From a bacterium (GTDB lineage: Bacteria > Gemmatimonadota > Gemmatimonadetes > Gemmatimonadales > JACORV01), in NCBI GenBank assembly GCA_021787855.1, contig JAJYLI010000004.1:1-36007 (forward strand): a DNA stretch of 36,007 bases, written 5' to 3'. The notes beneath the pieces were generated by a model. That model was not told the origin of the DNA. It was given only the letters and a program-made list of their open reading frames with translations, and made no database searches. Shown one piece after another: positions 1-36,007 of this stretch. The position numbers were made by a program, and so were the translations under genes. The stretch's first letter is position 1; the number at the start of each line of letters is the position of its first letter.

Positions 1-1407
1 GCCGGGGGCGCGGCGGGCGGCGGCGCGAGCCCGGGCGCGGCCGCGGGCGAGGGGCCGGTGGTCGCGGTGGCGGGCCGGCTGGTCTCGCTGCGGGAGCACG
101 GCAAGACGATGTTCGCGCATCTGGCCGATCAGAGCGGGCGGCTGCAGCTCTACCTGCGGCGCGACACGCTGGGCGAGGATGGTTTCGCGCTGCTGGCGCT
201 GCTGGACCTGGGCGACCACGTGGGCGTGTCGGGCCCGCTGTTCCGCACCCGCACGGGCGAAGTGACGGTGCGGGTGGAGCGGCTGGAGCTGCTGGCGAAG
301 GCGCTGCGGCCGCTGCCGCTCGGGAAGACGGCGGAACGGGCCGACGGCACGGCGGAACACTACTCGGAGCTGAGCGATCCGGAGCAGCGCTACCGCCAGC
401 GGTACGCGGACCTGGCGGTGCATCCCGAGGGCCGCGCGCTGTTCGAGCGCCGCGCCGCGGTGGTGCGCGCGATGCGCCGCTTCCTGGACGCCCGCGGGTT
501 CCTGGAGGTCGAGACGCCGGTGTTGCAGCCGCTGTACGGCGGGGCGTCGGCGCGGCCGTTCGTCACGCGCTACCACGCGCTGGACGCGGAGTTCTACCTG
601 CGGATCGCGGACGAGCTGTACCTGAAGCGCCTGATCGTGGGTGGGTGCGAGCGGGTGTACGAGATCGGCAAGGATTTCCGCAACGAGGGGATGGACCGGT
701 TCCACAATCCCGAGTTCACGATGCTGGAGGCGTACCAGGCCTACGCCGACTACCTCGACATCCTGGAGCTGACCGAGGAGCTGGTGGTGAGCGTGGCGCG
801 GGAGGTGACGGGCGGCCTGTCGGTCGAGGCCCACGGCCGGACGCTGGACCTCACGCCGCCGTTCCGGCGGGCCACGTTCGTGGACCTGGTGCGCGAGCAC
901 GCCGGGGTGGACCTCCGGGCCGCCGACGAGGCGGCGCTGGCGGCCGAGCTGAAGCGGCGGGGGATCGAGCCGGAGGCCGGCACGGGGGCCGGCCGGGGCC
1001 GGCTGATTGACCAGCTGTTCAAGGCGACGGTGGAGCCGGCGCTCCAGGCGCCGGTGTTCATCCTGGACTTCCCGATCGAGATGTCGCCGCTGGCCAAGCC
1101 CAAACGCGGGGATGCGGCGCTGGCGGAGCGGTTCGAGCTGTTCGTGGGCGGCAACGAGCTGGCCAACGCGTTCTCGGAGCTGAACGATCCGGACGACCAG
1201 CGGCGCCGCTTCGAGGCGCAGGCGGCGCTGCGCGCGCGGGGCGACGAGGAAGCGCAGGCGCTGGACGCCGACTACCTGCGGGCGCTGGAGTACGGCATGC
1301 CGCCCACGGGCGGCCTGGGCGTGGGCGTGGACCGGCTCACGATGCTGGTGACCGGCGCGCGCTCCATCCGCGACGTCATCCTGTTCCCGGCGCTGAGGCC
1401 GGAGTGA
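1..1407 (+). CDS. lysS: Lysyl-tRNA synthetase (class II), 5'-truncated by the window edge
   Basis: Frame is open from position 1; the ORF track starts at an internal GTG (58). OB-fold 'VAVAGRLVSLREHGKTMFAHLADQSGRLQLY', class II motifs 'YLRIADELYLKRLIVGGCERVYEIGKDFRNEGMDRFHNPEFTMLEAYQAY' and C-terminal 'GLGVGVDRLTMLVTGARSIRDVILFPALRP'. Confidence 0.95.
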   Translation, partial: AGGAAGGGASPGAAAGEGPVVAVAGRLVSLREHGKTMFAHLADQSGRLQLYLRRDTLGEDGFALLALLDLGDHVGVSGPLFRTRTGEVTVRVERLELLAKALRPLPLGKTAERADGTAEHYSELSDPEQRYRQRYADLAVHPEGRALFERRAAVVRAMRRFLDARGFLEVETPVLQPLYGGASARPFVTRYHALDAEFYLRIADELYLKRLIVGGCERVYEIGKDFRNEGMDRFHNPEFTMLEAYQAYADYLDILELTEELVVSVAREVTGGLSVEAHGRTLDLTPPFRRATFVDLVREHAGVDLRAADEAALAAELKRRGIEPEAGTGAGRGRLIDQLFKATVEPALQAPVFILDFPIEMSPLAKPKRGDAALAERFELFVGGNELANAFSELNDPDDQRRRFEAQAALRARGDEEAQALDADYLRALEYGMPPTGGLGVGVDRLTMLVTGARSIRDVILFPALRPE

Positions 1408-2654
1408 GCGCCGTCGAGCTGTGGATCGCCGGGCGGTACCTCAGGAGCCGCCGGGCGTCGCGGTTCGTCTCGCTGATCACCCTGATCGCCATCGCGGGCG
1501 TGACGCTGGGGGTGATGGCCCTGATCGTGGTGATCGGGGTGATGAGCGGGCTGCAGCGCGACCTCCGGCAGAAGATCCTGATCGCCAGCCCGCACCTCAG
1601 GATCCTGACCTACGGGCAGGGCCTGCGGATGGACGACTGGCCGCGGGTGCTGGGCGTGGTGCGGCGGGACCCGCAGGTGGTGGCGGCCGAGCCGTTCGTC
1701 CTGACGCAGGGGCTGGTGTCGGCGGGGCACGACTACGCCGAGGGCGCGTACGTGATGGGCACGGAGCCCGACACGGGGCGCGCGGCGGTGACGGCGCTGG
1801 CGCACTACTTCGTGAGCGGGGACCTCAGGTTCGCGACCACGGTGCCGGGCGTGGACGGCGGGGTGGTGCTGGGCGAGCGGCTGGCGGACCGGCTGGGCGT
1901 GGTGCCGGGGAACGTGGTCACCATGATCGCGCCCGCCGGCTCGCGGTTCAACCCGGCGGTGGGCGCGTTCGTGCCGCGCTACTGGCGGTTCGAGGTGACG
2001 GGGCTGTTCCGCACGGGGATGTACGAGTACGACAACGCGTACGTGGTGATGGCGCGGTCGCTGGCGCAGCGGTTCGCGGGGCTGGGGTCGGCGGTGACCG
2101 GGATCGAGGCGCGGGTGAAGGACCCGTGGCAGGCGGCGGCGGTGGGGCGGGCGATCGAGGACCGGCTGGGCTACCCGTACCGCGCGCTGGACTGGTCCAC
2201 CCAGAACGCCTCGCTGTTCGCGGCGCTGAAGCTCGAGAAGCTGGCGATGGCGGTGATCCTCCTGCTGATCGTGCTGGTGGCCGCGTTCAACATCGTGAGC
2301 ACGCTCACGATGGCGGTGGGGGACCGCACCAAGGAGATCGGCATCCTCCGGGCCATGGGCATGACGGCGGGCCAGATCCGGCGGATCTTCGTCGCGCAGG
2401 GGGTGGTGGTGGGCGTGGTCGGCACGGCGCTCGGCGCGCTGGGCGGCGTGGCGCTGGCGGAGGCGGTAGGGCGCTACCGGCTGATTCCGCTGGACCCCAC
2501 CGTGTATTTCCTGGACCACCTGCCGGTGAGCCTCAAGGTGACGGACGTGGGGACGGTGGTGGTGGCGAGCCTGGTGATCGCCGCGCTGGCCACGATCTAT
2601 CCCGCCGGGCAGGCCGCGCGGCTCGCCCCGGTGGACGCGATCCGGCACGAATGA
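1404..2654 (+). CDS. Lipoprotein-releasing ABC transporter permease, LolC/LolE family
   Basis: N-terminal TM 'RFVSLITLIAIAGVTLGVMALIVVIGVMSGLQRDLRQKIL', C-terminal FtsX-like TM block 'VAAFNIVSTLTMAVGDRTKEIGILRAMGMT'; directly followed by lolD. Confidence 0.92.
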   Translation: MSAVELWIAGRYLRSRRASRFVSLITLIAIAGVTLGVMALIVVIGVMSGLQRDLRQKILIASPHLRILTYGQGLRMDDWPRVLGVVRRDPQVVAAEPFVLTQGLVSAGHDYAEGAYVMGTEPDTGRAAVTALAHYFVSGDLRFATTVPGVDGGVVLGERLADRLGVVPGNVVTMIAPAGSRFNPAVGAFVPRYWRFEVTGLFRTGMYEYDNAYVVMARSLAQRFAGLGSAVTGIEARVKDPWQAAAVGRAIEDRLGYPYRALDWSTQNASLFAALKLEKLAMAVILLLIVLVAAFNIVSTLTMAVGDRTKEIGILRAMGMTAGQIRRIFVAQGVVVGVVGTALGALGGVALAEAVGRYRLIPLDPTVYFLDHLPVSLKVTDVGTVVVASLVIAALATIYPAGQAARLAPVDAIRHE

Positions 2655-3352
2655 CGGCGCTGCTGGAGGCGCGGGCGCTCGTGAAGCGCTTTCCCTCGGG
2701 CGACGCGGGCTGGCTGGAGGTGCTGTGCGGCGTGGATCTGACGGCGTCGCGCGGCGAGGTGGTCGCGGTGGTGGGGGCGAGCGGCTCGGGCAAGAGCACG
2801 CTGCTGCACCTGCTGGGCGCGCTGGACACGCCGAGCGGGGGCGAGATCCGGCTGGACGGCGCGGCCTACGGCGCGCTGGGGGCGGGCGCGATGGCGGAAC
2901 TTCGGAACCGGCGGCTCGGCTTCGTGTTCCAGTATCATCACCTGTTGCGGGAGTTCAGCGCCCTGGAGAACGTGATGATGCCCCTGAGGATCGCCGGCTG
3001 GAGTCCGGCCAAGGCGCGGGCGCGGGCGCTGGAGCTGCTGGCCGGGGTCGGGCTGGAGCGGCGCACCACCCACCGGCCGGCCGCGCTGTCGGGCGGGGAG
3101 CAGCAGCGCTGCGCGCTGGCGCGGGCGCTGGTGCACCAGCCGGACGTGGTGCTGGCCGACGAGCCCACGGGCAACCTGGACCACGCCAACGGCGTGCTGG
3201 TGGCCGACCTGCTGTTCTCGCTGGCGCGGCGGCTCGGGACGGCGGTGATCGTGGTCACGCACAACCGGGAGCTGGCGCAGCGGGCGGACCGGGTGCTGCT
3301 GCTGGAGGACGGGCGCGTGGCGCCGGCGGGCGCCGCGGAGGTGCCGGCCTGA
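2651..3352 (+). CDS. lolD: Lipoprotein-releasing system ATP-binding protein
   Basis: ATG overlaps the previous stop (ATGA). Walker A 'GASGSGKSTLLHLLGALDTPSGG', 'LSGGEQQRCALARALVHQPDVVLADEPTGNLD'. Confidence 0.93.
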   Translation: MTALLEARALVKRFPSGDAGWLEVLCGVDLTASRGEVVAVVGASGSGKSTLLHLLGALDTPSGGEIRLDGAAYGALGAGAMAELRNRRLGFVFQYHHLLREFSALENVMMPLRIAGWSPAKARARALELLAGVGLERRTTHRPAALSGGEQQRCALARALVHQPDVVLADEPTGNLDHANGVLVADLLFSLARRLGTAVIVVTHNRELAQRADRVLLLEDGRVAPAGAAEVPA

Positions 3353-35339: not shown

Positions 35340-35387
35340 TGACCGTTCGGCGATTCACCCTTCAACGACAGGCAGGCAAGGGGCTTC

Positions 35388-36007
35388 ATGGGAACATCGG
35401 TACGGGGCGCCACGGGCGGCGAGCGCGACTGGGCTACGTGGGCGGTCGAGCACAAGCGCACGCTGCTGTACGCGGCCGGCGCGGTCGTGCTGCTGGTCGT
35501 GGTCGCGTGGCTGTACGTCGTGTCCGAGCAGCGCAAGGAGCGGTTCGCCTCGCAGGCACTGGCCGCGGCCCGCTCCGACGCGGCGGCGGGCAACCTGCCG
35601 CTGGCGGAAAGCGATCTGACGCGGCTCATTGACCGCTACAGCGGCGCCCAGGCGGCCGACGAGGGCGAGGTGCTGCTCAACGACATCCGGCTGGTCCAGG
35701 GCGGCCCCGAGGTGGCCACGGCGGTGGCGGACCTGCAGTCGTTCGTGAAGAGCGGCCATCCCGCCTACATCCAGGCGGGGGCGTGGAGGCTGCTGGCGGG
35801 CGGGTACGAGCAGGAGGGGAAGTTCGCCGACGCGTCCAAGGCGTACGCCGAGGCGGTGCGGGAGGCGCCGCACGACTTCCTCAAGGCGGAGTACCTGCTG
35901 GACGAGGGGCGCACCGCGGCGCTGGCGGGGGATTCCACCGCGGCGCGCGCGGCATACGCGGAGGTCCTCGAGAAGTACGGCAAGCTGAACCAGGCGGCCG
36001 AGGCGCG
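35388..36007 (+). CDS. Single-TM, TPR-containing protein (YfgM/tol-pal-like), 3'-truncated by the window edge
   Basis: My own translation from ATG 35388, open to the window end (absent from the ORF track because unterminated): 'MGTSVRGATGGERDWATWAVEHKRTLLYAAGAVVLLVVVAWLYVVSEQRKERFASQAL...LAESDLTRLIDRYSGAQAADEGEVLLNDI...AGGYEQEGKFADASKAYAEAVREAP'. Confidence 0.85.
   Translation, partial: MGTSVRGATGGERDWATWAVEHKRTLLYAAGAVVLLVVVAWLYVVSEQRKERFASQALAAARSDAAAGNLPLAESDLTRLIDRYSGAQAADEGEVLLNDIRLVQGGPEVATAVADLQSFVKSGHPAYIQAGAWRLLAGGYEQEGKFADASKAYAEAVREAPHDFLKAEYLLDEGRTAALAGDSTAARAAYAEVLEKYGKLNQAAEA

Follow-up and report, generated by a model that had tools for sequence, protein, structure and literature searches.

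Lineage-restricted avoidance of the palindrome RTCGAY in a genome of the Gemmatimonadales, probably the imprint of a Type II restriction-modification system

Site avoidance in prokaryotic genomes is caused only by orthodox Type II restriction-modification (R-M) systems; it strengthens with the residence time of a system, and traces of lost R-M systems are common (Rusinov et al. 2015, PMC4687349). Among the restriction sites listed for Bifidobacterium breve UCC2003 is the degenerate palindrome RTCGAY (PMC12592239), where R is A or G and Y is C or T. M.BbrUII of the same strain is a 5-methylcytosine (5mC) enzyme related to M.HgiDII, of specificity GTCGAC (PMC5867850), and the two reports together suggest that RTCGAY is the target of the BbrUII system of UCC2003. 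The identical degenerate sequence is almost missing from the stretch of DNA analysed here, the 36,007 bases of contig JAJYLI010000004.1 (the window; G+C content 73.5%) in assembly GCA_021787855.1, from a bacterium of the Gemmatimonadales lineage JACORV01. As in the avoidance described by Rusinov et al. (PMC4687349), the palindrome is strongly rare throughout the genome, its rarity is lineage-specific, and no current system is required. Unlike the cases in that study, the depletion lies far under the avoidance cut-off of 0.78, and its footprint on Ile-Asp codon pairs, nearly all of which are written with ATT or ATA, is unusually strong. The depletion also has the other marks of an avoided site, being present in non-coding DNA and confined to the self-complementary class.

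The genome under study (G000, of which the window is contig C59) is a draft assembly of 2.82 Mb in 244 contigs, 95.7% complete. Hexamer counts and protein-family searches covered the entire assembly, and codon-level figures come from simple gene calls over about 0.86 Mb of the 2.82 Mb (~30% of the genome). On the plus strand of the window, an exact count found RTCGAY once, as ATCGAC, and found no ATCGAT, GTCGAT or GTCGAC. The expectation was 19.6 occurrences under a maximal-order Markov model and 41.3 under a codon-preserving model that fixes protein sequence, choice of synonymous codons and junction bias (range 27-52 over 200 simulations, none below 27). Under the codon model the sister classes were at or above expectation: 58 RTCGAR against 48 expected, 53 YTCGAY against 40, and 50 YTCGAR against 49. 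Individual words were counted as CTCGAC (28), TTCGAC (14), CTCGAT (7), TTCGAT (5), ATCGAR (26, including 25 ATCGAG), GTCGAR (32, including 29 GTCGAG) and CTCGAG (20). A sequence-only reading of the window had tallied these words by eye and proposed that RTCGAY alone among them is depleted; its TCGAY tallies agree with the exact recount almost to the unit, its single ATCGAC was confirmed, and the sparing of the sister classes holds in the window and throughout the genome.

In 793 kb of coding sequence of G000, 41 RTCGAY sites were found where the codon model predicted 888, an observed/expected ratio (O/E) of 0.05; the Markov model gave 0.09. All four words contribute (GTCGAC 0.02, GTCGAT 0.05, ATCGAC 0.07, ATCGAT 0.16), whereas the sister classes, with codon usage controlled in the same way, stand at 1.14 (YTCGAR), 1.24 (RTCGAR) and 1.29 (YTCGAY). 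A genome-wide ratio near 1, or equal depletion of the sister classes, would have counted against the sequence-only reading; neither was observed. Composition and codon usage are ruled out as the cause by the junction-aware codon model together with the spared sister classes. No other degenerate 6-bp palindrome tested has a z score as low as that of RTCGAY, and among plain hexamers expected at least 20 times the bottom three places go to three of its four words. Intergenic DNA totalling 60 kb contains 4 RTCGAY, compared with 71 YTCGAR and 130 YTCGAY, which places the effect at the level of DNA, beyond genes. The full 2.82 Mb, counted on both strands, contain 49 GTCGAC and 134 ATCGAC, compared with 828 and 2321 in the 3.6 Mb of the genus-mate G002. 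One contig of the G000 bin (C118; 4,731 bases, G+C content 0.74) has 11 RTCGAY sites, against 42 across the other 854 kb examined, and an atypical coding score; it is probably a foreign contig and serves as an internal control that argues against a sequencing artefact.

The avoidance is written into codon choice. Before Asp, Ile is encoded by ATC in only 28 of 337 cases (ATT 274, ATA 35), whereas before Glu it is ATC in 599 of 605. Of 1221 Val codons before Asp, 14 are GTC, 1190 GTG and 17 GTT, whereas before Glu GTC accounts for 762 of 1432. The use of ATC is normal ahead of Glu, Gly and Ala, and ATT GAC is 12- to 14-fold over-represented. Within the window, ATT is found in 18 of 19 Ile-Asp pairs, ATC in all 26 Ile-Glu pairs and GTG in all 57 Val-Asp pairs. 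Rare codons are thus employed to evade RTCGAY, and a single defence specificity appears to shape nearly every Ile-Asp and Val-Asp junction; some amino acids apparently have been altered by it too.

The direction of change was read from 42 orthologous pairs of G000 and G002 (about 77% amino-acid identity). G002 has 47 in-frame RTCGAY codon pairs, of which G000 keeps 3, and no site is found in G000 only; between the same genomes, matched RTC-GAG pairs are retained at 51% and ATC-GG pairs at 74%. Thirteen RTCGAY sites are common to G002 and an outgroup, and so are probably ancestral; all thirteen were lost in G000. ATC was replaced by ATT in most cases, otherwise by ATA, GTG or ATG, and GTC by GTG; there were also changes at the Asp residue.

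Among relatives, the depletion is shared by G000 and its congener G001, in which RTCGAY has an O/E of 0.17 and all four words are low. In G002 and the remaining family, ATCGAC is about normal (O/E 1.01; 0.76 in G005) and GTCGAC is mildly low (0.37). Whole-genome counts in 61 relatives gave 47 ATCGAC per Mb of both strands in G000, 157 in G001 and 645 in G002, with most others above 600; the lowest of these others are G005, G046 and G011, at ~325-465. G002 is normal for this word despite having the same G+C content as G000. The avoidance of RTCGAY is therefore lineage-restricted, as gain and loss of R-M systems would give, and G002, which lacks the ATCGAC depletion, offers a natural before/after comparison for estimating selection per site.

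The explanation that accounts best for these observations, and is probably correct, is that an orthodox Type II R-M system selected against RTCGAY over a long period in the lineage of G000 and G001. Such a system, cutting unmethylated RTCGAY, would have exerted long pressure in which each site was a liability whenever methylation failed; sites would have disappeared through synonymous substitution (ATC to ATT or ATA, GTC to GTG) and through amino-acid replacement. We infer an endonuclease as the agent, which afterwards was probably lost or else is encoded on an island that the binned assembly lacks. Restriction avoidance had been the first proposal of the sequence-only reading, and the genome-wide, palindrome-only, intergenic and lineage-restricted depletion, reached through many substitution routes, supports it. 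As such, G000 is a strong instance of a phenomenon already known, restriction-site avoidance, and an exceptionally clean one, in which raw sequence can disclose the specificity of an R-M system that was lost or not assembled.

Several results weigh against this explanation. If the system has since gone, a depletion to an O/E of 0.05 is a very strong one. No endonuclease or methyltransferase fitting RTCGAY was found in G000 with PF00145, PF01555, PF02384 and PF07669 (PF02086 and PF05063 were not searched). PF00145, the 5mC methyltransferase family, had no match at E 0.1 in seven family genomes, G000 included, although control genomes were positive, and PF01555 likewise had none in the seven. 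PF02384 and PF07669 match only two proteins of G000, on contigs C119 and C60, neither of which fits; a search for R-M genes elsewhere in the genome, which the sequence-only reading had thought might be informative, thus yielded two methyltransferase genes but no match to the site. G001, which is 80% complete, is likewise without a candidate enzyme. Low-G+C defence islands, however, are easily dropped in binning, and absence from a draft is therefore weak evidence. The sequence-only reading had named no standard enzyme for RTCGAY; no fitting gene was found in the G000 assembly, yet the specificity has been reported for B. breve UCC2003.

Neither of the two proteins tracks the depletion. No complete Type II R-M gene was found in G000 apart from that on C119, which encodes a fusion of an N6 methyltransferase with an endonuclease (Table 1), and among the 288 genomes of the order that were searched just 3 others carry a close homologue; both points would suit an active RTCGAY enzyme responsible for the avoidance. 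This is nonetheless unlikely. The endonuclease half belongs with SdaI, BsuBI and PstI (PF06616, E 3e-58; PF17728, E 2e-49; SdaI structure 2ixs, E 1e-72), and the characterised members recognise (C)CTGCAG(G). By analogy the fusion protein probably recognises CTGCAG, and the 21 loci with C119 homologues avoid CTGCAG (80 observed, 131 expected) and not RTCGAY (573 observed, 611 expected). G007 and G039 possess a homologue and have normal ATCGAC counts, whereas G001 is depleted without one. The gene has a G+C content of 0.62 in a contig of 0.71 and itself holds one GTCGAC, so that it looks recently acquired. G000 thus does contain a Type II system of the SdaI/BsuBI/PstI kind, but one that differs from the agent sought in its CTGCAG-like family site, its recent appearance and the lack of RTCGAY avoidance in hosts of its homologues. 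Further homologues are found in Acidobacteria, Planctomycetota, Nitrospirae and other groups, some matching the methyltransferase half only. In G003, in which no homologue of the C119 protein was found, CTGCAG occurs 6 times against 23 expected.

The C60 protein, an Eco57I-like N6 methyltransferase, was rejected as the agent. Of 61 genomes of the order, 56 carry a homologue, an unusually wide distribution for an R-M protein. The homologues of G001 and G002 are 75% and 74% identical to it with similar profiles per 100 amino acids, and there is no swap of target domain that sets G000 and G001 apart from G002. As a rule, genomes do not avoid Type IIG sites (PMC4687349).

Table 1. Coordinates of the RTCGAY-related features of the window and of the two methyltransferase genes found elsewhere in G000.
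Feature	Location	Strand	Details
RTCGAY avoidance region	window 1..36007	.	1 observed vs ~41 expected in coding DNA
Sole RTCGAY of the window (ATCGAC)	window 8717..8722	+	in frame, Ile-Asp, BamA-like gene 7559-10003
Displaced Ile-Asp coding, ATT GAC	window 5935..5940	+	ClpC-like gene
Further Ile-Asp pairs with ATT	window 1006, 5983, 6277, 6286, 7042, 8018, 8909, 9266, 10443
Further Ile-Asp pairs with ATT	window 11458, 13516, 14367, 29224, 29299, 31777, 35046, 35628
N6 methyltransferase-BsuBI/PstI endonuclease fusion	C119:18761-21250		829 aa; PF06616, PF17728, PF07669, PF02384
Eco57I-like N6 methyltransferase	C60:9653-12733		about 1,027-1,046 aa; NPPW and YFTP

More doubtful still is the alternative that the sequence-only reading had offered to restriction, namely that the C of RTCGAY was methylated in the absence of a restriction enzyme and the sites eroded by C-to-T decay. 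The enrichment of ATT GAC, the commonest substitute for ATC GAC, is what decay would produce, and M.BbrUII, a methylase known for RTCGAY, reportedly produces 5mC (PMC5867850). Decay should also have turned GTC into GTT, and no such shift is observed: GTT GAC occurs 12 times against 1061 GTG GAC, Val before Asp is overwhelmingly GTG rather than GTT, and RTCAAY is merely 1.25 times its expectation. Sites were lost to GTG, ATA and ATG and to new amino acids as well, and such mixed escape routes favour selection over decay of a methylated C. In contrast to the B. breve system with its 5mC methyltransferase, no protein of PF00145 was found in G000 or its family.

Equally improbable is a still-active RTCGAY nuclease whose modification enzyme belongs to none of the known DNA methyltransferase families, or which needs no protection; it would explain a near-total purge without a recognisable methyltransferase. 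The least probable is a force other than restriction, such as a sequence-specific RNase toxin directed at RUCGAY in mRNA, a protein that binds the DNA, or a general palindrome or codon-context bias, for although GAGCTC (0.36) and CAGCTG (0.45) are also low in G000 and GTCGAC is low across the family, the equal depletion of intergenic sites is unpredicted by an mRNA target and disfavours avoidance at that level, the R/Y symmetry fits a double-stranded target, codon-junction bias was already modelled with ATC normal in other contexts, and G002 has normal ATCGAC at the same G+C content.

The sites that remain in G000 have a feature of their own. The single ATCGAC of the window has a G just before it and so overlaps GATC, and among the 42 leftover sites in 854 kb, 29 of 38 ATC half-sites are likewise preceded by G. 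The background frequency of G at this position is 55%, and in G002 it is 64%; the excess in G000 is weak and was spotted post hoc, and on this slight basis GATC methylation could be shielding residual RTCGAY sites.

Other palindromes in the group are candidates for avoided sites. GAGCTC is low throughout the genus (0.27-0.36), and in G000 it and CAGCTG are the further candidates. CAGCTG is strongly depleted in relatives, for example in G013 (184 in 4.6 Mb), and is also very rare in G020 and G023, which suggests that it is an independent avoided site in these three genomes. Since this depletion is similarly strong, extreme avoidance is not unique to G000 within the group.

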